Source: Clostridia bacterium (GTDB taxonomy: Bacteria > Bacillota > TC1 > UBA5767). From it: a stretch of DNA of 64,000 bases. Each line of letters begins with the position of its first letter. The first letter of the stretch is position 1. The position numbers and the translations under genes are program-made. The notes beneath the pieces were generated by a model. The model was not told the DNA's origin. It worked only from the letters and a program-made list of their open reading frames with translations, and searched no databases. The stretch is from assembly GCA_016887505.1 (NCBI GenBank), contig CP069393.1:2069001-2133000 (forward strand), given 5' to 3'. Below, piece by piece: positions 49,741 through 63,040 of the stretch.

Positions 49741-51231
49741 TTATACGGTCTTTACATCAAACCAGAAGCAAACGCCATTGTCCTGGTTTTTCACGCCATA
49801 ATTATTACCATGCGCTTCCTGCATTACCTTAACGATGGATAAGCCCAAACCATGACCACCCTTTTCGCGGGTTCGTGATTTATCTACCTTGTAAAAACTG
49901 TTCCAGATATTTGTAAGGTCATGCTCATCAAATGGTGGTGAAGTGTTGAATACCTCAATCTTGGCCATTGTTTTAGTGGCGCTGATGTTTACTGTGATTT
50001 CCTTATTGTCATCTACGTAGTTGATGGCATTGTTAATATAATTGGTAAAAACACTTTCCAACATAATTAAATCGGCGGTTACGATTACGGGATCAGATTT
50101 ATGAATGCTCCATTTGATTTGGTTTTCATCAAATACCTTGATGTATTTTTTCAAGATGCTTTCGATGAAATCGTTGATTTCAAATTTCGAAAAATACAAT
50201 CTTGTATCCCCGAATTCTACTTGATTAATGTTTAGCAGTTTTTCAACCAATTGGTTCATCTTGTTTGCTTCATCCATAATTACATCGCAATAGAAATCGG
50301 ACTGCTCCTTGCTTTTCGATACATTTAATTTTAATCCTTCTGCATATCCCTGCATGAGAGCTAGAGGTGTTTTTAATTCATGCGACACACTATTTAGTAA
50401 ATCCTTACGCCGCTCATCCAACCGGTTCTTTTCGCTTATTTCTACTTTTAGTTCTTTGTTTTTATTATTTAAATTTTGTATGTTATAGGATAGCTCTGAG
50501 GATAGCTCGTTGATGCTTTGTGCTAATTGTCCAATTTCATCTTTTGTCTTAACGTTGCATTTGCTGTTGAAATCCAAATTTCTCAATTTCTTGGTTGTAT
50601 TATTCATTTGAATAATTGGCTTTGTAAAGTTATTGGAAATCAAATAAGCGATGAGCATGGCTACAACAAAGATTATGCTACCAATTATGAGGGCAAACTT
50701 GTTGTAAAGATTGATGTTTGTGTCAATTATGGATAGTGGAATCTTTAATTCAACAAGATACCCGTTTTCCAAAGAGCCAACTAAGGCCAGATGCTTAACA
50801 TTGATTGTGGTATCGTTAAACCCCAAAAAAGTGGTGTTTTCATCGATGGGTTCTTCCAAATATACATCATAGGAAGTAGGTAGCGAATAGCTACCGATAC
50901 GATGTTCCAAAGCCGGCAACCGGGGAGTGGGCGTGTTTCCTATATGGTTTGGTGCATTGGCACTCGCTCCATAAATTAAATTGTTGTCCGCATCTCTTAT
51001 TATGATGTCCACCCGTTGATCATTTTGGATTAACAAAAAATCGAGTGAATGGTCCTCATATTCGTCATTATTAATCTGGTCGATTGTATCATAAACCTCG
51101 ATTAACCATTTTTTTTGGTTAAAAACATAGAATGGCTCTAAAAGTAATGAATTGGCTAGGATTGTTAGCCCCACTAAGGTGATGGCCAGTGAACCGATGT
51201 ATATGAATAATTTTTTTCTTATGGAGTTCAT
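49741..51231 (-). CDS. Sensor histidine kinase with HAMP domain
   Basis: 496 residues. Membrane helices at about 8-28 and 178-200 bracket an outer sensor domain of about 150 residues without recognisable family. A HAMP domain, a helical stretch and the kinase core follow; the phosphorylated His is in SVSHELKTPL (about residue 285) and the ATPase has VFTNYINNAINY, and EKGGHGLGLSIVK. It overlaps its response regulator by four bases and is transcribed away from the Tat/flavoprotein genes, which are the likely regulon. Confidence 0.92.
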   Translation of the reverse strand: MNSIRKKLFIYIGSLAITLVGLTILANSLLLEPFYVFNQKKWLIEVYDTIDQINNDEYEDHSLDFLLIQNDQRVDIIIRDADNNLIYGASANAPNHIGNTPTPRLPALEHRIGSYSLPTSYDVYLEEPIDENTTFLGFNDTTINVKHLALVGSLENGYLVELKIPLSIIDTNINLYNKFALIIGSIIFVVAMLIAYLISNNFTKPIIQMNNTTKKLRNLDFNSKCNVKTKDEIGQLAQSINELSSELSYNIQNLNNKNKELKVEISEKNRLDERRKDLLNSVSHELKTPLALMQGYAEGLKLNVSKSKEQSDFYCDVIMDEANKMNQLVEKLLNINQVEFGDTRLYFSKFEINDFIESILKKYIKVFDENQIKWSIHKSDPVIVTADLIMLESVFTNYINNAINYVDDNKEITVNISATKTMAKIEVFNTSPPFDEHDLTNIWNSFYKVDKSRTREKGGHGLGLSIVKVMQEAHGNNYGVKNQDNGVCFWFDVKTV

Positions 51232-51899
51232 TTTGGCACCTCAAATTTATAACCATACCCTCGGACCGTCTTAATGTAGGAAACGTCTTGATTCAATTTA
51301 TCTCTAAGCCTATTGATATGGGTATCAACTGTCCGGTCAGTACCTTCATAGTCGTATCCCCAGACATTGTTTAATAGGGTATCTCTACCTACAACAACAT
51401 TTTCATTTTCTAACAAATAGACTAGTAACTTATATTCGGTAAGACTTAGTTCAATTTGCACATCTTCATTTTTGACTGAGTGTTTATCTAAATCTATGCT
51501 TAGCGTGCCTTTTTCTATTACGGAAGTCTTGTTATAGGTGCGAACTAGTAGGGCATTGACTCTCGCGACTAGTACGGATGGACTGAATGGTTTTTTGATG
51601 TATTCATCGGCCCCCTTATTAAATCCTTGTAATTCATCTTTTTCGGCCGCTTTGGCCGTAAGCATGATGATTGGAATCTTGCTACTACGCCGAATTTCTT
51701 CACAAATTTCCCACCCATTATAATATGGCATCATTACATCTAGGATCACCAGGCTTATGTCTTTGTTTTCCATAAAAATTTCGATGGCTTCAGCACCATC
51801 ACATGCCTCAATAATCTCGTATCCCGCATCTACCAAAAAGTCAGATATCAAAATACGCATTCGCTTTTCATCGTCTGCGACTAATATTTTATATTTCAT
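51228..51899 (-). CDS. OmpR-family response regulator
   Basis: 223 residues. Receiver domain with phosphoacceptor Asp in LVILDVMMPYYNGWE (about residue 54), KKPF with the conserved Lys, and an OmpR/PhoB winged helix ending YIKTVRGYGYKFE. It pairs with the kinase encoded immediately downstream. Direct repeats of a TTACAA-type element lie 43 bases upstream of its start, suggesting autoregulation. Confidence 0.93.
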   Translation of the reverse strand: MKYKILVADDEKRMRILISDFLVDAGYEIIEACDGAEAIEIFMENKDISLVILDVMMPYYNGWEICEEIRRSSKIPIIMLTAKAAEKDELQGFNKGADEYIKKPFSPSVLVARVNALLVRTYNKTSVIEKGTLSIDLDKHSVKNEDVQIELSLTEYKLLVYLLENENVVVGRDTLLNNVWGYDYEGTDRTVDTHINRLRDKLNQDVSYIKTVRGYGYKFEVPK

Positions 51900-51942
51900 T
51901 TAATCACACCATCCTTATGTTGATGATTCTACACGTGCTTTG

Positions 51943-51975
51943 TTACAACTATTTTACAATAATGTAAGAAAGATT
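51943..51975 (-). promoter_or_regulatory. Candidate response-regulator box (11-base direct repeats)
   Basis: Read on the + strand: TTACAACTATT, TTACAATAATG, TAAGAAAGATT, three 11-base units in register, the spacing used by PhoB/OmpR-type dimers. The surrounding 447-base gap (51900-52346) otherwise holds no gene; near 52190-52230 another TTACAA core occurs on the - strand, before the first tatA. Confidence 0.45.
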
Positions 51976-52346
51976 GCGCATAAATATTGTGGCAAAGAAA
52001 ACATAGGCAAACAAATAATCCCACAAGCCCTAGCCAGGTTTGAATTTTAGACATTCTCTTTCATTTGCAGCTAGAATCCAAACAATCCTTAAAATAGTAT
52101 ACCACGCATAGGATTCTTATTTTGGAATCGGAAGACCAGATTGGAAATACTTTTGCAATGCAGACGGGTTGGCTGTAAGAATTCAGTTTGAAATTTGTAA
52201 TTGTTATAAGATTGTGACAAACAATATTTAGAATAGGACCATAGATGACGAGTACTTGCTTGACTTGATCTGGATTAATTTCAATTGGCAAGCGATGTAT
52301 CGAACTGTTGAAAATGCAGAAAGCAAATTACAAAGGGGGAGAGGAC

Positions 52347-52514
52347 ATGGGTTCTACAGAATTAATCGTAATTTTGGCAATGGGGATACTGATATTTGGA
52401 GCATCAGCAATCCCGAAACTAGCAAGGTCATTCGGTGAAGCAAAAAAGGAAATTGACAAAGCTTTAAATGATGCAGAAACAGTATGCTCTAGTAAGAATC
52501 AAGACATCATATGA
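52347..52514 (+). CDS. tatA: Small TatA-type twin-arginine translocase subunit (first copy)
   Basis: 55 residues. A single membrane helix GSTELIVILAMGILIFGA followed by the conserved hinge FGASAIPKLARSFGEAKKE and a short charged tail; bacterial TatA is often longer, so this is a minimal form. GGGGGAGAGG sets ATG 52347 and rejects the frame from 52308. The first 12 residues after Met are identical to the second copy at 53652. It pores the membrane for folded proteins with TatC (53818). Confidence 0.88.
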   Translation: MGSTELIVILAMGILIFGASAIPKLARSFGEAKKEIDKALNDAETVCSSKNQDII

Positions 52515-52517
52515 AAA

Positions 52518-52545
52518 TGTGGACCTAACCGGAAAAGCGTCCACA
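52518..52545 (+). terminator. Weak hairpin after the first tatA
   Basis: TGTGGAC and GTCCACA pair around a 14-base loop and are followed by ATATTTGG, with no true T-run; possible attenuator between tatA and the lipoprotein gene. Confidence 0.3.
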
Positions 52546-52606
52546 ATATTTGGTCACGCATAGGAACTCTGAAAAGGATTGTTAAAAAAAGAAAAGGAAT
52601 AATGAT

Positions 52607-53218
52607 ATGAAAAAGAAAGCGATTTTACCAATATGTTTCATTGTCGTACTGGTCTTTTTTGCAGGTTGTAGTAGCACGGGAGCGACGGAAATAACAGCAG
52701 AAGATTTAGAATCAGCGGAAGAAGCAGTTGTCGACCAAGAGGAATTAGCAGCAGAAGAGGGGGTCTTACTTGATGCAGAAGAAGTACCTATAAAGGAGGA
52801 TGCACCTACGGCGGACAAGGAAAGAACTTCTTCTAAAGCGGATGCACCTGCAATGGAAACGGAAAAAGCTTCTCCGGTAAACGATGCTCCAGTAAACGAT
52901 GCTTCAGCTGAGAAAGTAGATGTACCTGCTGATGCTGACCGGCCAGAGCAGCAAGAGTCACAATTTGCTGAATATGTTGAAAGTGGTGTTTTAACGCAGG
53001 ACGAAGCGGAAGCTTTGGATGAGTACTTCAGGGAAAACATGCCCTCTCAAGAAATGTCAGAATCTTCTACAAATGAGATGGTAAATCCGTTAGAGGGTGC
53101 TGTTGAAGAGGGGATTATTACGCAAGCACAAGCAGATCTAATTGATATGGATAGCCCTATGGCTAGGCCCGAAATGGGAGCAGATAGAGAACCAGGTGGC
53201 GCAAGACCGAGTAATTAA
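52607..53218 (+). CDS. Glu/Ala-rich lipoprotein of unknown function
   Basis: 203 residues. Signal peptide KKKAILPICFIVVLVFFAGC with lipobox FFAGC; the mature protein is a long acidic, Ala/Glu-rich low-complexity stretch to about residue 110, then two short similar helical units, SGVLTQDEAEALDEY and EGIITQAQADLID, and a Pro/Gly/Arg tail. I recognise no domain. It lies between two tatA genes and upstream of the exported flavoprotein, so it may anchor or partner it at the outer face. A strong terminator follows. Confidence 0.75.
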   Translation: MKKKAILPICFIVVLVFFAGCSSTGATEITAEDLESAEEAVVDQEELAAEEGVLLDAEEVPIKEDAPTADKERTSSKADAPAMETEKASPVNDAPVNDASAEKVDVPADADRPEQQESQFAEYVESGVLTQDEAEALDEYFRENMPSQEMSESSTNEMVNPLEGAVEEGIITQAQADLIDMDSPMARPEMGADREPGGARPSN

Positions 53219-53270
53219 CCTATTGAAAGCAAACGTATGTGCAGCAAATTGATTTATAAAAACTTCCCAT

Positions 53271-53317
53271 AAGACCCCTGCCTATGTAAGACTTTTTCAC
53301 ATAGGCAGGGGTCTTTG
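53271..53317 (+). terminator. Terminator after the lipoprotein gene
   Basis: AAGACCCCTGCCTATGT (53271-53287) and ACATAGGCAGGGGTCTT (53299-53315) form a perfect 17-pair stem with an 11-base loop. It splits the locus into two transcripts. Confidence 0.85.
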
Positions 53318-53412
53318 ATGGCAAGTCCATATTTACATGTTGAACGATGTCTAGGTATCTTAGACTAGGGAATACACCTATTTGATTTGCTGGCAAGCAT
53401 GGGATGCAGTCA

Positions 53413-53463
53413 AATATGTTGTAATCGGTGATGAAATTACAACATATTGACAGAAGGTATAAT
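53413..53463 (+). promoter_or_regulatory. Inverted-repeat operator and -10 box before the second tat operon
   Basis: AATATGTTGTAAT (53413-53425) is exactly inverted as ATTACAACATATT (53436-53448), ten bases apart. TATAAT follows at 53458-53463, so a bound regulator would sit on the -35 region. The TTACAAC core matches the repeats before the response regulator, which suggests the same controller. The gap 53318-53651 holds no other feature. Confidence 0.6.
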
Positions 53464-53651
53464 TGTTAATTTGTTAATAAATTGGACCCAGCCGTCTTTG
53501 TGATATGGCTGTAACATAAATCCATTATTATTTTTTTAAACCGAATTGGTGCCATACAAAAAAAGGGTATTTCCCTAAATGAAGGCATATGACTCCAGTA
53601 TGGTGTAATGGGCTATGAACCAATAATTTGATGTTTAATGGGAGGTAAAAA

Positions 53652-53816
53652 ATGGGATCAACAGAACTAATCGTAATTTTGGCAATAGTGGTATTGGTAT
53701 TTGGAGCATCATCAATTCCAAAACTGGCAAGATCGATTGGCCAGGCAAGAAGAGAGTTTGACAAGGCGCTTAAGGATGACGATAAAGACCTAATTGATGG
53801 TAACGGAGAAAAGTAA
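53652..53816 (+). CDS. tatA: Small TatA-type subunit (second copy)
   Basis: 54 residues, shorter than most gene callers report. MGSTELIVILAIVVLVFGAS, then IPKLARSIGQARREFDKAL and an acidic tail. It is a paralogue of the copy at 52347, similar also at DNA level (shared stretch ctaatcgtaattttggcaat with one change). GGGAGGT lies eight bases before the ATG, and tatC starts one base after its stop. Two such genes 1.3 kb apart imply local duplication. Confidence 0.9.
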   Translation: MGSTELIVILAIVVLVFGASSIPKLARSIGQARREFDKALKDDDKDLIDGNGEK

Positions 53817-53817
53817 A

Positions 53818-54561
53818 ATGAAAACGGAAGTGCGTTCTGACAAATATATGCATATATTTGAACATCTAAGGGAACTGAGAAAAAGACTATTTATATCATT
53901 AGTAGGGTATGTACTCTTTCTAATTCTCGCCTTTGTGGTATATGACTATATTGTTGATGCATTCATTAAGTTTTACTCATCGATACCAAGCGGAGGTGAC
54001 AACGTATTGTTTGTTAACTCGGTTGTTGAAGGCATGACGACAAAAATCAAAGTATCCTTATTGATGGGACTGACGTTTTCACTGCCAGTGCATATATACA
54101 ATAGTATTGCTTTTGTGTTTCCGGCATTGGAGCCAAAGCAAAAGAGATATATTGTGGTTACCCTGATATGCAGCTTTGTCTTAATGTTGTTAAGTACGTA
54201 TCTTTCCTATTTTAAAATATTGCCAGTATCAATCAATTTTTTGACCAACAGTGGCTTTATTCCGAGCAATGTGGGTTTGTTGTTAAGCTATGAAACCAAT
54301 CTTTTCTACGTGTTGTACTTTGTGTTTTGGTCAATGGTTGCCTTTCAATTACCTATCGTGTTCGTATTGTTAATGGCATTTAACGTTATCAAGAGGAAGA
54401 CAGCGTTACAGATGAGCCGGTACATCATTATTGTGATCTTTGCTCTGGCAGCCATTGTTACCCCGCCGGATGTGATTAGTCAGGTAGGGTTAGCACTACC
54501 GCTAGTTATACTATTTTTTCTAGCAATCTTGATAGCGAAAATATTTAAGTTTGGAGAATAA
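53818..54561 (+). CDS. tatC: Twin-arginine translocase subunit TatC
   Basis: 247 residues, six membrane helices; the signal-peptide-binding start EHLRELRKRLFISLVGY and the later VTPPDVISQ motif are diagnostic. It recognises RR signals and recruits TatA. ATG 53818 follows tatA by one base and uses CGGAGA ahead. The flavoprotein at 56754 is an obvious substrate encoded in the same operon. Confidence 0.95.
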   Translation: MKTEVRSDKYMHIFEHLRELRKRLFISLVGYVLFLILAFVVYDYIVDAFIKFYSSIPSGGDNVLFVNSVVEGMTTKIKVSLLMGLTFSLPVHIYNSIAFVFPALEPKQKRYIVVTLICSFVLMLLSTYLSYFKILPVSINFLTNSGFIPSNVGLLLSYETNLFYVLYFVFWSMVAFQLPIVFVLLMAFNVIKRKTALQMSRYIIIVIFALAAIVTPPDVISQVGLALPLVILFFLAILIAKIFKFGE

Positions 54562-54563
54562 CT

Positions 54564-54818
54564 ATGTTTGGTCTAGGTTTTATAGAAATTATTGTGATCG
54601 GTATTGTAGTTTTACTGGCTGTAAAACCAGAAGACTTGCCTAATTTTGTAAAAAAAATTGGTAGGTCCTATAAAGAGCTTAAGAATACAATCAGTGAAGT
54701 AAATAAAATGAAAGAAGATTTTGTCAAAATAGCGGATAAAGATATCAAACAAGAAATAGTTGATAAAACAAAAAAAGTATTGGATTCCGATGATGCTTTG
54801 ACGGTAACTAAAAAATAA
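54564..54818 (+). CDS. TatB/TatA-like small translocase subunit
   Basis: 84 residues: an amino-terminal helix FGLGFIEIIVIGIVVLLA, then KPEDLPNFVKKIGRSYKELK, the hinge and amphipathic helix of the MttA/Hcf106 family, with a longer charged tail than the two tatA products. TatB-like function (substrate docking) is likely because TatA is already present twice, but the families are hard to separate. It follows tatC by two bases. Confidence 0.82.
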   Translation: MFGLGFIEIIVIGIVVLLAVKPEDLPNFVKKIGRSYKELKNTISEVNKMKEDFVKIADKDIKQEIVDKTKKVLDSDDALTVTKK

Positions 54819-54866: not shown

Positions 54867-55085
54867 ATGGCGATTAATACTATTGATGGAAAATGTACCA
54901 GTTGTGGAGAATGCGTACTCGCGTGTCCCTGTGACGTATTGAGATTAGATGAAGAGACGAATCTTTGTGTTGTGAAATATCCAGATGATTGTCAACTGTG
55001 CAACTTGTGCGTTTACTATTGTGAATTTGATGCACTTGAGTTAACCGGTGAGAAGAATGGCAAGCTCGTTTTATCCTGGAGCTGA
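54867..55085 (+). CDS. 2[4Fe-4S] ferredoxin-like electron carrier
   Basis: 72 residues with two cluster motifs, CTSCGECVLACPCDVL and CQLCNLCVYYCEFDAL; the last one lacks the usual Pro after the fourth Cys. Size and order (ferredoxin then flavoprotein) recall AprB-AprA or small reductase partners. AAAGGAG supports ATG 54867. It is cytoplasmic, so it probably feeds the non-exported flavoprotein that follows 24 bases later. Confidence 0.88.
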   Translation: MAINTIDGKCTSCGECVLACPCDVLRLDEETNLCVVKYPDDCQLCNLCVYYCEFDALELTGEKNGKLVLSWS

Positions 55086-55109: not shown

Positions 55110-56738
55110 ATGGTTAATTATATAAAATCAGAATATTCCACTGATGTATTGGTTGTTGGTGGAGGAATAGCAGCAGTGTTTGCATCGTTGCGGGCACAAG
55201 AAAATGGCGCCAAGGTTTTACTGGTTGATAAGGGGAGCGTAGGCAGATCAGGGCAAACACCCTTTGCCAGTGCGATGGCTGTGTTTGATGAAGAAACACA
55301 AGACCGAGATTCTTGGCAGAAAATTATGGCAGAGAATGCTGAGAATTTGAATAATCCAGCCTATTTGGATGTGCTTATGGATTACTCCAAAGAAATATAT
55401 GATGAATTGGAATCGTGGGATGCAACCGGTGTCGGTTTCGGTTCTATATTTAGAGATAAGATTATGGAAAAAGGTGTAGAGTTACTGGAAAGATGCATGA
55501 TTACTTCATTGCTAGAAGAAAGTGGAACCGTGGCCGGTGCGATTGGATTTAAGATAGATAGCGGAGAAGCAGTAGTGATAAAAGCGAAATCTGTAATTCT
55601 ATGTACAGGTGCCGGTGGCTTTAAACCGAATGGATTTCAAGTTCGTTCCCTAACCTTTGATGGTGATGCCATGGCCTACCGGATTGGTGCAAAGATATCT
55701 GGCAAAGAGTTTGTCGATACGCATGGCACCTTAACCAGTTACCCGGCCTTTTGTTGGGGACAATGGGAAGGCATGTGGAATCAAGGCTTACCCGCAATTC
55801 CCGATGGACCCATGGATGGTGGTGGACAGGCCTTAGATCTTCATGAGTGTATCGATGTTCATGAAAATGGTGTTAGTACTTCTTCAAGCAGCGATGAGCA
55901 AGGAGGACCACCAGCAAGAGAGTCTGGAAGTGGGGAAGAGCAAGACGGGCCACCACCTGAAGAATCTGAAAGTGGGGATGAGCAAGCTGGACCACCACCT
56001 GGCGAATCTGAAGGTGGAGAAGAAAGAGGCGGTGGTGGAAATCCGAGAACGATGATCGGCGGAGCTTCTGCGGGCTTAGGTGTACATAAAGCCGAAGGCT
56101 TATTCCCTGCAGACAACAAATGCAGGACCAATATTAAGGGATTATTGGCTGCAGGAGATTGCTTGTCATCTATGCTAGTTGGACCACTATATAATGGGGT
56201 TGGTGGTTTTTCAGTATCTGGTTCTGCAACACAAGGGGCACTAGCCGGTGAAGTAGCCGCAGAATACATAAAAGCTAGCAGCCAGGTAAGTGTTTCAGAC
56301 AGTATGGTAGAGGAAGCAATTGATGAAATGTTTGAACCATTGAACAATGAATATGGATATTCACCTGGTTGGGTAGAGCATATGATTCAGGGTACTTTGA
56401 TTCCCTATTATGTCTTATATATTAAAGAAGAAAAGAGACTGAATTCAGCGCTTACGAATATTGAGTTTTTCAGAGACCATTTCTCCGTTAAATTGAAGGC
56501 TTCGGACCTGCATGATTTACGAAAAGCACATGAAGTGAAGAATATGTTGCTTAATGCCGAAATGAAATTGAGGGCCTCTCTATTTAGGACCGAGTCTAGA
56601 GGTAATCACTACCGCGAAGAGTATCCTGAAAGCAATGACAATGACTGGCTTGCCTGGGTCGTGATTCAAAAAGGCGATGATGGGAATATGCAGCTTGAAA
56701 AATTCATGATAAAAGAGTTTGAAAAGCTTGTAGTATGA
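55110..56738 (+). CDS. FAD-dependent reductase of the FrdA/AprA superfamily, no signal peptide
   Basis: 542 residues. The FAD loop is VVGGGIAAVFAS (last Gly replaced by Ala), followed by KGSVGRSGQTPFA; the second FAD motif is IKGLLAAGD and the helical carboxy domain has ...LRTESRG-type RTESRGNHYREEYPESND, the FrdA/AprA-like Arg-His-Arg region. Between residues 250 and 310, where relatives have a capping domain with the substrate lid, there is an acidic Gly/Pro-rich insert with three 14-residue repeats. No HPTG motif is seen, so ordinary fumarate reduction is doubtful. Its paralogue with a Tat signal follows 15 bases later. Confidence 0.82.
   Translation: MVNYIKSEYSTDVLVVGGGIAAVFASLRAQENGAKVLLVDKGSVGRSGQTPFASAMAVFDEETQDRDSWQKIMAENAENLNNPAYLDVLMDYSKEIYDELESWDATGVGFGSIFRDKIMEKGVELLERCMITSLLEESGTVAGAIGFKIDSGEAVVIKAKSVILCTGAGGFKPNGFQVRSLTFDGDAMAYRIGAKISGKEFVDTHGTLTSYPAFCWGQWEGMWNQGLPAIPDGPMDGGGQALDLHECIDVHENGVSTSSSSDEQGGPPARESGSGEEQDGPPPEESESGDEQAGPPPGESEGGEERGGGGNPRTMIGGASAGLGVHKAEGLFPADNKCRTNIKGLLAAGDCLSSMLVGPLYNGVGGFSVSGSATQGALAGEVAAEYIKASSQVSVSDSMVEEAIDEMFEPLNNEYGYSPGWVEHMIQGTLIPYYVLYIKEEKRLNSALTNIEFFRDHFSVKLKASDLHDLRKAHEVKNMLLNAEMKLRASLFRTESRGNHYREEYPESNDNDWLAWVVIQKGDDGNMQLEKFMIKEFEKLVV
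55896..56021 (+). repeat. Three tandem 42-base repeats inside the flavoprotein gene
   Basis: Units at 55896-55937, 55938-55979 and 55980-56021 encode EQGGPPARESGSGE, EQDGPPPEESESGD and EQAGPPPGESEGGE (residues 263-304). The frame is kept and the bases have partly diverged, so this is an older expansion of an acidic Gly/Pro linker. Confidence 0.9.
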
Positions 56739-56753: not shown

Positions 56754-58418
56754 ATGTATATAAGCAGAAGATCATTTATTAAAGGTGCTCTTAGTGTAGG
56801 TGTTGCCGCAGTAGCTTCTACAGCGTTTTATATTAAAAACAAATCACCGGAAGAGGTTGCCACGATGATTGATAAGGCGACAGAAGGTAATGCCGATGTT
56901 TTGGTTGTTGGTGGGGGTATAGCAGGAATCTTTGCGGCCATACGGGCAGTGCGAAACGGTGCGAATGTAACCTTAGTAGATAAGGGCAGTGTTGGCAGAT
57001 CAGGTCAAACGCCCTTTGCCAATGGATTTAGAGTATTCGATGAAGATAATGGTGACGATAGGGAAACCTGGGTCAAGGACTGGAACACAGTGACCGGTGG
57101 AATTCACCATAGTGGCTATTTGGATAACTTTATGGACTATTCAAAGGATATCTATGAAGAGCTAGAATCATGGGGTGCTACCGATGTTGGTTTTGGCGCC
57201 GTCTTAAGAGCCAAGGTACAAGCAGAGGGCGTGGAAATCATTGAAAGAACGATGCTTACAACATTGTTGGAGCAAAATGGTCAGGTAGCAGGAGCTGTTG
57301 GTTTTAAATTAGACAGTGAAGAGGCTGTGGTCATTAAAGCTAGTGCGGTTATTCTTTGTACAGGGGCAGGCGCCTTCAAGCCCAATGGCTTCCAAGTGCG
57401 TTCCCTCACTAGTGATGGGGATGCCATGGCCTATAGAATTGGCGGACAGATTTCAGGAAAAGAATATGTTGATACCCACTTCACCGGATCGGTCAATCCC
57501 GCTTATTGTTGGGGAAATTGGGAAGACAAGTGGGAGACTGGCATGATGAAAGAAAGTGGTGGCCCAGAAGTAAATGGTGGTGGACTCGATTTGACGATGT
57601 ACCATGCAGCCCATGCCATGTCTGGGGAACAGTCGGACTTGCCGGGCGAGCAATCAGATAACCGAAGAGGTCCAGAAGGGGCTTCTGAAGGTGGCGAAAT
57701 GGAACGAGGACCAGGTGGCGGTGGTGCACCCGGTTCAGGGGAAGGGACTCAGATTGGTGGCGCTTCTGCTGGACTTGGCGTTCACAAGTGTGAAGGATTA
57801 TTTCCAGCAGATGATAAATGCGGAACCAATATCAAGGGGCTATTTGCTGCTGGTGACAGCCTGTCGTCAATGCTCGCGGGTGCAAAGTATGTGGGCGTAA
57901 ATGGTACCTCTCTAGCAGCTTCTGCAACACAAGGAGCCTTGGCTGGTGAAACAGCTGCTGAGTTTATACAGTCCAACGAAGCGCTAGAGATAGCAGAGGA
58001 TACGATTACGAGTATTAAAGAAGAAATGTTTAAGCCAAGGGAATTAACGGAAGGTTTCGATCCTGCCTGGGTGGCGGATATGCTTCGGTTTAATACGATT
58101 CCCTACTACGCCTTATATATAAAAAAGGCGGATCGATTGCAGGCGGCCTTAGACAATGTGGTCTATTTGAAAGAAAAGTATGGTAATATGATGGTTGCTA
58201 GTGATGCGCATGAGTTGCGTTTGGTTCATGAGACGAGAAATATGCTATTAAATGCCGAAATGAAACTGAGAGCATCCTTGTATAGGACTGAATCAAGGGG
58301 CAACCACTATAGAGAAGACTTTCCTGAACAAAACGATACGGACTGGCTGGCATGGGTTGTAATTGAGAAGGATGCAGATGGTAGTATGAAACTATCCAAA
58401 GTAGCGGCGAACAGCTAA
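56754..58418 (+). CDS. Tat-exported FAD-dependent reductase, paralogue of the preceding protein
   Basis: 554 residues. A twin-arginine signal is visible: RR at residues 5-6 in ISRRSFIKGALS, then a hydrophobic stretch to about 27. The FAD loop is VVGGGIAGIFAA, with KGSVGRSGQTPFA, IKGLFAAGD and RTESRGNHYREDFPEQND as in its neighbour. Instead of the capping domain it has a Gly/Glu/Ser-rich insert (near residues 285-330) of different sequence from the neighbour's repeats. It would act at the outer face of the membrane, receiving electrons from the FMN-binding protein encoded next. Substrate unknown. Confidence 0.86.
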   Translation: MYISRRSFIKGALSVGVAAVASTAFYIKNKSPEEVATMIDKATEGNADVLVVGGGIAGIFAAIRAVRNGANVTLVDKGSVGRSGQTPFANGFRVFDEDNGDDRETWVKDWNTVTGGIHHSGYLDNFMDYSKDIYEELESWGATDVGFGAVLRAKVQAEGVEIIERTMLTTLLEQNGQVAGAVGFKLDSEEAVVIKASAVILCTGAGAFKPNGFQVRSLTSDGDAMAYRIGGQISGKEYVDTHFTGSVNPAYCWGNWEDKWETGMMKESGGPEVNGGGLDLTMYHAAHAMSGEQSDLPGEQSDNRRGPEGASEGGEMERGPGGGGAPGSGEGTQIGGASAGLGVHKCEGLFPADDKCGTNIKGLFAAGDSLSSMLAGAKYVGVNGTSLAASATQGALAGETAAEFIQSNEALEIAEDTITSIKEEMFKPRELTEGFDPAWVADMLRFNTIPYYALYIKKADRLQAALDNVVYLKEKYGNMMVASDAHELRLVHETRNMLLNAEMKLRASLYRTESRGNHYREDFPEQNDTDWLAWVVIEKDADGSMKLSKVAANS

Positions 58419-58488: not shown

Positions 58489-60198
58489 ATGCTTTTTGTT
58501 CGGGGGGGCAATGTGAAAAAGAAGAAATTAAACAGGTCAGATGTGCAGTTTGCCTTTATAATAATGGCAATCTTAATAACCGTGAACCATTCATTGGTAG
58601 AAGTAGGCAAGGGGATTTCGTGGATTTCCAGTGGCTATATACACTATGTATGTCCCATCTGTGGCGTTACGACCATATACCAGTTTTTTGCATCAAGTGC
58701 AGATTGGTTGACAAAGCTTACAAACCCTGTCGCTTGGGTGATTCTGGGATCCATAATGGTGGCCGTATTGTTTGGTCCCATATTTTGCGGCTGGATCTGT
58801 CCTTTTGGAGGTTTTCAAGACCTAGTATCGAATAATTTAGGCAAACGAATTGTAAAAAATAAGCACAATAGATATATAGATAAGAAAGTGGATAAAAAAT
58901 TAAGGTACCTGCGATATGTGTCACTGGCAATCGTCTTCTATATGACAGCCAAGTCGGCCGTAACCGTGCTTGAAAATGTAAATCCATACCATGCACTGTT
59001 GAACTTATTTGTAGGTGAATTTGCAGTTATTGGATTAATCGTTTTGCTAATAGTAGCACTCGCCTCGGTATTTATTGCTCGACCTTGGTGTAAGTATCTC
59101 TGCCCATATGGTGCATTACTAGGATTGTTCAATATTGTTCGAGTTAAGGCCATTGTTAGAAATGAGCCTACGTGTATTCACTGCAAGAAATGTAGTAGGG
59201 CATGTCCCATGAATATTGAAGTAGCTGAAAGTAAGATTGTGCGAGATCATCAGTGTATTTCTTGCCTTGAATGTACTTCAGACAATGCTTGCCCCGTTGA
59301 GGATACGGTTCAGTTAAAAGGTACGAAAGGTCTTCAAGAAGTAGTTGAAATCAATGCGAAAAACATAATTGCTGTTCTATTGATAATTGTGTCTTTGAGT
59401 ATCTTTACCGCAGCGGTTGTATCAGATAAGACGACTGAAAGCAGTGCGGAAAGTGTGATTCCTCTTGTTTCAACCCAGCTAGATGGTAGCTATGAGTCTG
59501 GAGTATATACGGGGGAAGGAACGGGCTTTAATACCGGTTTAATGGTCGAAATTACCATAGACAATAACCAGATAACCAATATTGAGATAACTAGCCATAA
59601 TGAAACGATTGGTTACTATGAAGCCGCGTTTGAAACGATTCCAAACAGTATTATAACGGAACAATCAACGGAAGTGGATTCTGTGTCTAGTGCAACCAGA
59701 AGTTCAGAAGGAATAATGGAAGCAGTGAGCGATGCTTTGGAGAAAGCCTTGATTACGACTAGTAATACGACGGAAGTAGAGTCTGAGGGCGTAGAGGTAG
59801 TTGAGAGTGAAAGGGAAGTATCAGAGCCTGTGCAGCAAGATACTACTAGTCAAAATGAAAATAGCGAGCTTGAGATTGAGCCTGAAATTGAGCCCACGAG
59901 TGAAGAGGATAGTATTCAAGTAGACGATTCTGGTCGTTATGCGGATGGCGTTTATACCGGTGTAGGTGTAGGATATGGTGGCGAGCTGACGGTGGAAGTA
60001 ACCGTTGAAAATGGTAGCATCATGAGTGTGGAAGTTGTTGAAGACAATGAAACGCCGCGCTTCTTAAGTCGAGCCTCATCGATTCTAAGCAGCATACTAG
60101 ATAGGCAATCTACTGACGTAGATACGGTTTCGAGTGCTACGATGAGTTCGACGGCAATTCTAGATGCAGTAGACCAGGCTCTGGAAGGTGCCCAATAG
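58489..60198 (+). CDS. NapH/NosR-like membrane iron-sulfur protein with two FMN-binding domains
   Basis: 569 residues. About five helices carry the paired motifs CGWICPFGGFQDL and CKYLCPYGALLGL; CPICG follows the first helix. A 2[4Fe-4S] domain (CIHCKKCSRACP, CISCLECTSDNACP) precedes a final helix near residue 305. Two extracytoplasmic FMN_bind domains follow, with likely flavinylation Thr403 (SVSSATRSS) and Thr551 (TVSSATMSS), joined by an acidic Ser/Glu linker. It would take electrons from the membrane pool or cytoplasm to the outside. GTG 58513 with GGGGGGG ahead is an alternative start. A flavin transferase (ApbE) gene is not in the window. Confidence 0.9.
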   Translation: MLFVRGGNVKKKKLNRSDVQFAFIIMAILITVNHSLVEVGKGISWISSGYIHYVCPICGVTTIYQFFASSADWLTKLTNPVAWVILGSIMVAVLFGPIFCGWICPFGGFQDLVSNNLGKRIVKNKHNRYIDKKVDKKLRYLRYVSLAIVFYMTAKSAVTVLENVNPYHALLNLFVGEFAVIGLIVLLIVALASVFIARPWCKYLCPYGALLGLFNIVRVKAIVRNEPTCIHCKKCSRACPMNIEVAESKIVRDHQCISCLECTSDNACPVEDTVQLKGTKGLQEVVEINAKNIIAVLLIIVSLSIFTAAVVSDKTTESSAESVIPLVSTQLDGSYESGVYTGEGTGFNTGLMVEITIDNNQITNIEITSHNETIGYYEAAFETIPNSIITEQSTEVDSVSSATRSSEGIMEAVSDALEKALITTSNTTEVESEGVEVVESEREVSEPVQQDTTSQNENSELEIEPEIEPTSEEDSIQVDDSGRYADGVYTGVGVGYGGELTVEVTVENGSIMSVEVVEDNETPRFLSRASSILSSILDRQSTDVDTVSSATMSSTAILDAVDQALEGAQ

Positions 60199-60221: not shown

Positions 60222-60252
60222 AATGGATAGGCTTTTGCCTATCCATTTTTTT
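60222..60252 (+). terminator. Terminator of the flavoprotein operon
   Basis: AATGGATAGGC (60222-60232) and GCCTATCCATT (60237-60247) pair around TTTT, then a T-run; it lies between convergent genes. Confidence 0.93.
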
Positions 60253-60259
60253 AACCCGA

Positions 60260-61519
60260 CTATTTTATGTTTTTTCGGTATTGCAGGGGGGTTAGCTTGC
60301 TTTCTTTCTTGAATACTTTTGTAAAATAGCTTTGGTCGTCATAGCCTGTAGAAAGTGCGACCTCCATGACGCTCAGGTTTGTCGTACTTAGAAGACGTTT
60401 GGCCTCATTAATGCGCAGGTGGTTGATGTATTCGGTAAGTGAGCTACCAGTTTCCTTTTTGAATACGGACGACATGTATTTAGGACTCAATTCGGCTACC
60501 TTGGCTACATCCTTTAAGGTGATATGTTGCGTGAAATTGGCGCTAATATATTTGAGTGCTTTCCGGATGGTGCTGGGATGGTCTGAATCAATTACCAAGA
60601 TGACGTGTTCTGTAAATCTGTCCAATACCTGCATCATCCAATAGGAAAGGTCGTCCATGGTTTTTATTTTGCTTAGGTCCTGAATGAAATGATAGTTCAT
60701 ACCAAACATTAGGTTTAGGTCGGCGCCGCCTTCAATGGCTGCTCTAGAAATGAGAGAACAAATTTCTAGTGCCCTGGATTTGCTGACTTCGATGTCAGCA
60801 TAGGTATCGAAAAAAATGTATCCTAGTAAATCGTTCAAGACGGCTCGTGCACCGTTGCTGTCGCCGCTTCGGACCTTCATGAGAAGGTCTTTTTCTTTTT
60901 CGTAGGGATATTGGGAGGATAAGCTACCCTCTTTTTTGATGTTGAGGAGGCTGTCATGAATTTGTTTTTGTTGTTCCTTTTTACTGTATAGTATTTTCAT
61001 TTCGAGTTGGCTTTGCCCCATCATGCGATCTCCTAATAGTTGGAGAAGAATGCCTAAATATCGAACCCGCTTGGGATCTATTACGGGAAGGCTTCGTAGA
61101 TATGGGTAGAGCTTTTTTTTATAACATATATCTAACTGGTTTTTTTCTAGTATTTCATCGACCAGAAGATCGTCCGGATAGGACATGAGTACAGGACCAC
61201 CGACTAAGGTACCGACGTGAACGCCTTCGATAATGATGGGATAGCAGAATTCTGTTAAACCGGCCGGGCAGAAAAAGATAAAAGTTTCTCCTAAGGTATG
61301 GGCTTGTTTGCCGGCATATAGGTGGGTCTGATTGCAGAGCTGTCCTCCATCGGTGATGGATTGGAATAGGTTGCAGAATGAAACTTCGTCGCACATATTG
61401 CACGAAGTTTTGCCACTTGCATCAACATATTTTACGGAAATAGTGGTGCTGTAGTAGTAGGTTTCCAACATATATTGTAGTCGTTCTCTGTCGATTGGCC
61501 CAATTTGGTTAAATATCAT
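60260..61519 (-). CDS. AraC-family regulator with PocR sensory domain
   Basis: 419 residues. The amino half is a PocR-type sensor with a Cys cluster (CNMCDEVSFCNLF, then CNQTH and FFCPAGLTEFC); the AraC double helix-turn-helix at the end has LKDVAKVAELSPKYMSSVFK and VALSTGYDDQSYFTKVFK. PocR domains occur in regulators of propanediol and of methyltransferase/corrinoid operons. It is divergent from the corrinoid protein genes, which are the probable targets. The effector is not identifiable. Confidence 0.9.
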   Translation of the reverse strand: MIFNQIGPIDRERLQYMLETYYYSTTISVKYVDASGKTSCNMCDEVSFCNLFQSITDGGQLCNQTHLYAGKQAHTLGETFIFFCPAGLTEFCYPIIIEGVHVGTLVGGPVLMSYPDDLLVDEILEKNQLDICYKKKLYPYLRSLPVIDPKRVRYLGILLQLLGDRMMGQSQLEMKILYSKKEQQKQIHDSLLNIKKEGSLSSQYPYEKEKDLLMKVRSGDSNGARAVLNDLLGYIFFDTYADIEVSKSRALEICSLISRAAIEGGADLNLMFGMNYHFIQDLSKIKTMDDLSYWMMQVLDRFTEHVILVIDSDHPSTIRKALKYISANFTQHITLKDVAKVAELSPKYMSSVFKKETGSSLTEYINHLRINEAKRLLSTTNLSVMEVALSTGYDDQSYFTKVFKKESKLTPLQYRKNIK

Positions 61520-61685
61520 AAAAAACCCCTCTTGTTTAAAAGAATATACCTAATTTTATCACGTAATAAAAAAATATATTTGAAGATATGGAAATATTAC
61601 CAAAAATATAACCAATTTTCGAGATAATACGCTAAATATGTTATACCATGTTGCTAGAGTGCTAGTGAAAGGAAAATGGAATATC

Positions 61686-62327
61686 ATGTATCTCGAAGAA
61701 ATTGTACGAGCGGTGCAAAATGGTAAGGCGGCAGCAGTAAAAGAGCAGGTACAAAAGGCAATTGAGGAAGGTGTTTCAGCAAGGGAGATACTCAATGATG
61801 GGCTTCTTAGCGCCATGAGTGTGATTGGTGATAAATTTACCAAAAATAAGATCTACGTACCGGAAGTGCTTTTAGCAGCACGTGCGACAAATGTGGGCAT
61901 TGCTCTTTTGCAACCATTGTTTGCAGAAGAAAATATTAAGCCCCTGGGGAAGGTTGTCATAGGGACGGTACAGGGAGATATTCATGATATAGGCAAGAAC
62001 TTAGTGGGTATGCTGATGAAGGGGATCGGGTTTGAAGTGCATGATATAGGTGTAGATATTGCACCGCTACAATTTGTTAAGGAAGCACAGAAAATTGGTG
62101 CTGATATAGTATGTATTTCTTCGCTTCTGACGACCTCCATGATTAATATGAAATGGGTTATTGATGAGTTTGAAATCCGAGGGATTCGAGATAAGCATCT
62201 TATTATGGTTGGTGGCGCCTTGGTCACTTCCCAGTTTGCCAAGCAAATCGGAGCAGATTTGTTTTCAGCTGAGGCGGGTGCGGCAGCTAGGTTGGCACGG
62301 AAGCAATTGATAGAGAGAAATTCATAG
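61686..62327 (+). CDS. Corrinoid carrier protein, MttC/MtbC type (first)
   Basis: 213 residues. A four-helix cap (residues 1-85) precedes the cobalamin-binding Rossmann domain with GDIHDIGKNLV, whose His coordinates cobalt, then SSLLTTSM and VGGALV. It carries a methyl group between two methyltransferases. The first in-frame Met with cap homology is ATG 61686; AAAGGA lies 12 bases ahead, a long spacing. No methyltransferase gene lies beside it within the window, apart from the distant UroD-like gene at 46386. Confidence 0.9.
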   Translation: MYLEEIVRAVQNGKAAAVKEQVQKAIEEGVSAREILNDGLLSAMSVIGDKFTKNKIYVPEVLLAARATNVGIALLQPLFAEENIKPLGKVVIGTVQGDIHDIGKNLVGMLMKGIGFEVHDIGVDIAPLQFVKEAQKIGADIVCISSLLTTSMINMKWVIDEFEIRGIRDKHLIMVGGALVTSQFAKQIGADLFSAEAGAAARLARKQLIERNS

Positions 62328-62401
62328 TTGGTAGCGGGTGATGTTGTGCACAGATGATGTTTTTAGGAGATATCCTAACAGAAACGTAAGGAGTGAACGA
62401 T

Positions 62402-63040
62402 ATGAGTATTTTAGAGGAATTGGCAGAAGCTGTTGAATTGGGAAAACCTGATGAAGCAATTGCGAAAACACAAGAAGCGATTGAATTGAAGATGAGTCCT
62501 TTGGATATCATGAATAAAGGTTTGATCGTGGGCATGGACATCATAGCTGAAAAGTGGTCCAGAAATGAAGTCTTCATACCTGAAATCTTGGTAGCTGCTA
62601 TGGCCCTAACACAGTCGGTTGAGCTTTTAAAGCCCTTGCTATTGGATGGAGATGTGAAACCGGTGGGTAAGGCTGTAATTGGAACCGCCAAAGGTGATTT
62701 GCATGATATTGGTAAAAATCTGGTTAAGCTGATGATGACTTCTGCTGGATTTGAAATGATTGATTTGGGTACGGATGTTTCGGATGAGGATTTTGTGACG
62801 GCTGTCAAGGAAAATGGTGCGGACATTCTCATGATATCTGCCCTATTAACTACCACAATGACTTATCAGAAGTTAATCATAGAATCGTTAGAGAAGAGTG
62901 GTTTAAGAGATCAGGTTAAAGTAATGGTTGGTGGTGCTCCTGTATCGCAAGAATTTGCCGATGATGTAGGGGCGGATGGCTTTGCAGTAGATGCTGTGGC
63001 TGCGGTCAAGGTAGCAAAGAAATTGCTTTTAGCAAGTTAA
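62402..63040 (+). CDS. Corrinoid carrier protein, MttC/MtbC type (second)
   Basis: 212 residues, same architecture as the preceding protein: helical cap, then GDLHDIGKNLV with the cobalt-ligand His, SALLTTTM and VGGAPV. AAGGAGTG seven bases ahead sets ATG 62402. The two copies are clearly diverged, so they may serve different methyl donors. They are followed by a cobalamin riboswitch and a cobT-like gene. Confidence 0.92.
   Translation: MSILEELAEAVELGKPDEAIAKTQEAIELKMSPLDIMNKGLIVGMDIIAEKWSRNEVFIPEILVAAMALTQSVELLKPLLLDGDVKPVGKAVIGTAKGDLHDIGKNLVKLMMTSAGFEMIDLGTDVSDEDFVTAVKENGADILMISALLTTTMTYQKLIIESLEKSGLRDQVKVMVGGAPVSQEFADDVGADGFAVDAVAAVKVAKKLLLAS

Follow-up and report, generated by a model that had tools for sequence, protein, structure and literature searches.

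The window analyzed here, a 64,000-nucleotide stretch of the genome of a Clostridia bacterium, contains a two-component system encoded divergently from two tat transcription units, the second of which continues into a respiratory operon. The genes and terminator-like element considered below are as follows.

49741-51231, minus strand: sensor histidine kinase, 496 aa (HAMP, HisKA, HATPase_c); overlaps the regulator gene by 4 nt
51228-51899, minus strand: OmpR/PhoB-family response regulator, 223 aa (Pfam Response_reg, 96 bits; Trans_reg_C, 93 bits)
52347-52514, plus strand: tatA1, 55 aa (Pfam TatA_B_E, 40.4 bits)
52607-53218, plus strand: lipoprotein-like gene, 203 aa (DUF2680 at 20.7 bits, below the cut-off of 25; lipobox LVFFAGC recognized by eye)
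53271-53315, plus strand: 17-bp perfect hairpin, terminator-like, with a short T run, closing the tatA1-lipoprotein unit
53652-53816, plus strand: tatA2, 54 aa, a tatA1 paralogue (Pfam TatA_B_E, 53.8 bits)
53818-54561, plus strand: tatC, 247 aa (Pfam TatC; NCBIfam tatC above cut-off)
54564-54818, plus strand: tatB-like gene, 84 aa (TatA_B_E, 23.6 bits; cut-off 21)
54867-55085, plus strand: 2[4Fe-4S]-type ferredoxin
55110-56738, plus strand: flavoprotein reductase 1 (FAD_binding_2 and Succ_DH_flav_C; signal peptide not apparent on inspection by eye)
56754-58418, plus strand: flavoprotein reductase 2, 59% identical to reductase 1, with N-terminal SRRSFIKG
58489-60198, plus strand: NapH-like membrane iron-sulphur protein with FMN_bind domains, the last gene before a hairpin

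The receiver and winged-helix Trans_reg_C domains of the regulator both score above the Pfam cut-offs, placing it in the OmpR/PhoB family. Its best NCBIfam model is that of PhoB, which it matches with 205.5 bits, below the equivalog cut-off of 296.2 (TIGR02154), and a search of solved structures with the regulator retrieved other OmpR-family regulators only, with RegX3 as the best. The N-terminal ~190 aa of the kinase, which have no Pfam match, likely lie outside the cell. On the other side of the locus, TatA/B-type genes stand together with tatC, whose product is the genome's sole TatC match, and are recognized by Pfam and NCBIfam as components of a Tat translocase. The predicted operon runs from tatA2 to the gene for the NapH-like protein with no intergenic gap over ~70 nt and ends at the hairpin at 60222-60247. 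The SRRSFIKG sequence of reductase 2 was read by eye as a putative twin-arginine signal.

The first-pass annotation had proposed TTACAA as a control element common to the regulator and both tat transcripts. Two TTACAA copies are indeed present before the regulator, at 51943-51964 (TTACAACTATT/TTACAATAATG), where the notable feature is the 11-bp spacing of the copies next to a gene for an OmpR/PhoB-type regulator, half-sites spaced by 11 bp being typical of this family. The functional form is read from the opposite strand, as TTGTAA-N5-TTGTAACA, and points at the regulator gene. In the tatA1 leader, the minus-strand TTACAA is present as well (52195-52200), but the actual site is the adjacent plus-strand TTGTTA-N5-TTGTGACA at 52201-52219. 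A third box, overlooked in the first pass, lies in the tatA2 promoter. The three belong to a 34-bp module, TTGTDA-N5-YTGTRACA-N9-TANNAT, in which two half-sites in direct repeat, 11 bp apart in all three boxes, are followed by a -10 hexamer 11 nt beyond the second half-site.

51926-51959, minus strand: box 1 and -10 of the regulator-kinase operon, TTGTAA-N5-TTGTAACA-N9-TAGAAT, 0 mismatches; half-sites 51959-51954 and 51948-51943, -10 at 51931-51926, 26 nt to the ATG
52201-52234, plus strand: box 2 and -10 of tatA1, TTGTTA-N5-TTGTGACA-N9-TAGAAT, 0 mismatches; half-sites 52201-52206 and 52212-52217, 112 nt to the ATG
53498-53531, plus strand: box 3 and -10 of tatA2, TTGTGA-N5-CTGTAACA-N9-TATTAT, 1 mismatch; half-sites 53498-53503 and 53509-53514, 120 nt to the ATG

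Each box points at its own gene, and the spacing between box and -10 is identical in all three promoters. With spacers of 15-19, the best match to TTGACA reaches at most three of the six positions in each promoter, and none of the three was listed by a promoter scan. In pho promoters the box stands in for the -35, and a box without a -35 at one fixed distance from the -10 is the arrangement of PhoB-type activation; judged by sequence only, the three promoters share this class II layout. We consider it probable (roughly 77%) that the regulator binds the boxes and activates its own operon, the tatA1-lipoprotein unit, and the tatA2 operon. The phosphorylated regulator would bind the two half-sites as a head-to-tail dimer that sits in place of the missing -35 and contacts RNA polymerase, activating three units: the regulator-kinase operon itself, tatA1 with the lipoprotein gene, and the tatA2-tatC-tatB-ferredoxin-two flavin reductases-NapH/FMN protein operon. 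A single switch would then deliver the Tat exporter, the electron donors, and a probable cargo, the flavin-based respiratory enzymes of the operon probably being exported by its Tat system.

The same regulator on the same boxes could instead act as a repressor, its dimer covering the -35 region and shutting the three promoters, as the overlap of the box with the -35 position would allow; PMC10294691 describes PhoB as a dual regulator whose effect varies with the position of its site. However, promoters without a -35 of their own would leave little to repress, and the spacing to the -10 is the same in all three; we consider repression unlikely.

The closest likeness is to the E. coli pho box, where an OmpR/PhoB-family regulator likewise acts on a direct repeat, held in strict spacing to the core promoter according to PMC10294691. 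The PhoB consensus as quoted in PMC4168254, CTGTCATA-W-A-W-CTGTCACA, is close to YTGTDATAT-NN-YTGTRACA of the present box, although the position occupied by C in the PhoB consensus is a purine here (or, in the first half, T), and its targets are Tat and flavin reductase genes rather than phosphate genes. The WalR/VicR box, given in PMC4168254 as TGTWAH-N5-TGTWAH, shares the hexamer half-sites and the 5-bp spacer, and box 1 fits it exactly, whereas boxes 2 and 3 do not and the regulator scores 178.7 bits on the YycF model, below the cut-off of 340. The box is of the PhoB/WalR kind yet fits neither regulon's definition.

We then considered 80 loci encoding relatives of the regulator, 79 of which were scored, one having too little upstream sequence. 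The box, with at most one mismatch, is found in the 300 bp preceding the regulator homologue at 15 of the 79 loci, at least two of which (L041 and L045) look like chance, and the reversed pattern at none. The closest relatives have the same repeat, several of them with a -10-like hexamer at the 11-nt distance past the second half-site. Several foreign sites have an imperfect -10. On a regulator tree of 30 of the 80 loci, which left out L072 and three further box loci from C. difficile and counted L029 as box-bearing though its box faces the divergent gene, the box label requires 2 changes, compared to a mean of 8.7 for shuffled labels (0 of 500 shuffles as low). All rows of the nine-row clade that includes the window regulator (support 89/82) have the box. 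The box-bearing clade tends to a common recognition region, GTDRTVDT-xx-NRLR, with L028, L029, L032, and L037 varying in detail; the regulators of L030 and L031, 58-59% identical, lack the box.

These observations bear on the possibility that a second OmpR-family regulator in the cell, for instance the 49% identical paralogue at G000:C1:2028799, is what binds the boxes. Such candidates exist, the genome holding three regulators at E <= 1e-40, and boxes of a related type are found beside other clades of regulators, as at C. difficile locus L079. Nevertheless, the box accompanies the clade of the adjacent regulator across several families, lies beside that regulator's own gene, and follows its tree, which makes a different regulator quite unlikely.

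The third site assigned by the first-pass annotation to the common element was an inverted repeat before tatA2, thought to overlap a -10 box.

53413-53448, either strand: perfect palindrome AATATGTTGTAAT-N10-ATTACAACATATT, with 13-nt arms at 53413-53425 and 53436-53448 and a 10-nt gap

The repeat is real, being unmatched in size by any perfect repeat in five 64-kb Markov sequences and unique in the genome up to 3 mismatches, but it is a different element, scoring 2.8 bits on the box matrix compared to 20.9-26.5 for the three boxes (this matrix includes the window boxes). Instead of a -10, it covers ATTACA at 53436-53441, the possible -35 of a sigma-70-like promoter, ATTACA-16-TATAAT, that matches at 10 of 12 positions and whose TATAAT (53458-53463) starts 9 nt past the right arm; such promoter matches are no commoner than in shuffled sequences. 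For the palindrome to be the tatA2 target of the regulator is very improbable: both arms contain TTACAA/TTGTAA, and the OmpR-family regulator CmrR of C. difficile was shown to recognize an inverted repeat (PMC12548384), but the score is low, there is no copy before the regulator or tatA1, and a proper box lies ~50 bp downstream. We rejected the palindrome as the same site as the boxes. It is probably a separate operator, likely for a repressor, at an upstream tatA2 promoter, and would provide a second, separate input to tatA2 in addition to box 3.

A genome-wide search for TTGTDA-N5-TTGTRACA-N9-TANNAT with at most two mismatches yielded three matches in 2,563,013 bases, all three boxes and nothing beyond these control regions; the reversed control also gave three matches, so that the total is not enriched and the signal lies in the clustering only. 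Because boxes 1 and 2 were already known when this pattern was composed, only box 3 being new to it, and because its control gave three matches, the test was repeated with a matrix free of window sequence, built from ten sites at six foreign loci (L024, L025, L026, L027, L028, and L037). Across the whole window, box 3 ranks first (25.9 bits), box 1 second (24.2), and box 2 third (18.2), with the fourth-best position at 12.1 bits. Boxes 3 and 1 score above all of 6.0 million Markov positions, and the score of box 2 is expected 0.85 times per genome. Among 200 column-permuted matrices, none gave a third-best match as high, and the best single match reached 18.2 bits in four. When each locus was left out in turn, all 10 training sites were the top one or two matches of their own ~12.6-kb locus. 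Thus, a foreign-trained matrix picks exactly the three control regions that the first-pass annotation had grouped into one regulon, namely those of the regulator and both tat transcripts, and the grouping stands on a different element from the one proposed.

TTACAA itself was rejected as the motif. It occurs 54 times in the window, compared to a shuffle mean of 52.7 (sd 7.1), with 48 of 100 shuffles reaching as many, and the spaced pair TTACAA-N5-TTACAA occurs twice in the genome, as does its reversed control, showing no enrichment. The WalR consensus was rejected as well, with one window match compared to 0.42 expected and 11 genome matches compared to 21 for the reversed control. That the three leaders are simply AT-rich and share TTACAA-like words by chance, the objection anticipated in the first pass, is true of TTACAA alone but fails for the corrected 34-bp module and is contradicted by the matrix test, and is scarcely credible as an account of the boxes.

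Without mismatches, the half-site pair occurs four times in the genome, at the three boxes and between cyclophilin-like and htrA-like genes; with one mismatch it is uninformative genome-wide (44 matches compared to 53 for the reversed control). The fourth exact pair (G000:C1:1289103-1289120; L128:1501-1518) faces the cyclophilin side, the gene names resting on sequence reading, and may belong to another envelope-stress regulator. In the genomes of eight relatives, the module pattern gave 77 matches compared to 43 for the control and is therefore a poor genome-wide classifier. From these 77, 27 were chosen by eye and scored with a matrix built in part from the window sites, and seven were examined as loci. 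Five of the seven are correctly oriented and have a start codon following within 100 nt, preceding genes for an EF-hand protein (L158), a VTC operon (L160), and lipoprotein-like (L161), membrane-fusion-like (L163), and secreted-like (L164) proteins; the L159 match is inside an open frame, and that of L162 has no start nearby in the direction it faces.

The genes paired with the regulator differ among relatives. In five of them (L024-L027 and L037, from Oceanirhabdus, Vallitaleaceae, Clostridiaceae, and Acidaminobacter), the same regulator-kinase pair is divergent from a VTC-DUF4956-CotH-like set rather than from tat, with a box facing each side in four of the five (not L037). Pfam identified VTC, DUF4956, and CotH in L024 and VTC in L037, and L025-L027 were assigned by sequence likeness. 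At L029, the divergent gene with the box encodes an EF-hand/FGE-sulfatase protein. Oceanirhabdus has another VTC-DUF4956 operon on the contig of the regulator, ~0.97 Mb away, and a box precedes the start of this operon by 26 nt. The box is thus associated with targets too, and not with the regulator gene alone.

Searches for the same tat cluster elsewhere found TatC in only the bacterium's own genome, both among 299 genomes of the phylum (E <= 1e-45) and among four of the family, with no match in the three genus and family relatives; likewise, reductase 2 was found in 1 of 398 genomes, its own (E <= 1e-60; 3 candidates per genome scored). Since this genome holds no VTC domain gene and those three relatives lack TatC, the pairing of tat with the regulator looks acquired. 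The coding parts of tatA1 and tatA2 align, and their leaders do not beyond the box: the local alignment of the leaders is exactly the box, at a score of 9 that is not above shuffles (mean 9.5). Through the tatA paralogy, a single ancestral box could have given rise to boxes 2 and 3; a recent duplication of the whole tatA promoter region was rejected, as the leaders do not align, older events still being possible. In the one other Tat-linked relative, a Spirochaetales MAG (L036:1347-4774), a related regulator without an adjacent kinase is followed by flavin reductase, TatC, TatB, and TatA, a comparable cluster in a different phylum, and no module was found at this locus up to 3 mismatches.

The kind of switch is ordinary (PhoB-like), and relatives put this regulator and switch to work on quite different genes, one regulator clade keeping its box while the neighboring target operon differs. 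We tentatively suggest, at somewhat less than even odds, that the two-component pair and the divergent box layout form a cassette that has been re-used, for a VTC-DUF4956-CotH surface operon in relatives and, here, for the cell's only Tat exporter and a flavin-based respiratory chain. If so, exporter and cargo assembly would be one switch. The arrangement suggests for this anaerobe a dedicated Tat system that forms part of a respiratory operon and is inducible with it, instead of an exporter with housekeeping duties. In B. subtilis, phoD-tatAd-tatCd, a tat operon with its own substrate, is reportedly under the OmpR-family regulator PhoP, with TTAACA repeats, but regulator, box, and substrate are different and the setting is phosphate starvation. 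Other regulated tat systems are described in PMC9604234 (bile-salt induction via Psp in Salmonella) and PMC4038636 (PhoP-dependent Mcr7 in M. tuberculosis); the papers found on tat under two-component systems and on the link of VTC/CotH to the regulator provide context only. A six-letter coincidence is replaced by three base-exact promoter predictions, and a candidate binding consensus is now available for a clostridial regulator clade that had none in the open-access papers searched. The motif may already have been described for Bacilli; a set of Bacillus regulator motifs was reportedly predicted by de Been in 2008.

Some further features were noted in passing. At L079 (5907-5940), a perfect module, box plus TATAAT, lies before the genes of a regulator and kinase from a different clade, and a gene for a cell-wall-binding-like protein comes next. 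In both flavin reductases of the window, the region of the reductase domain contains low-complexity inserts with many E, S, G, and P residues (~55880-56045 and ~57620-57750), which look unusual for this enzyme family. The respiratory operon is followed, at 60260-63040, by a gene for a PocR/AraC-type regulator and two genes that look corrinoid-protein-like by eye.
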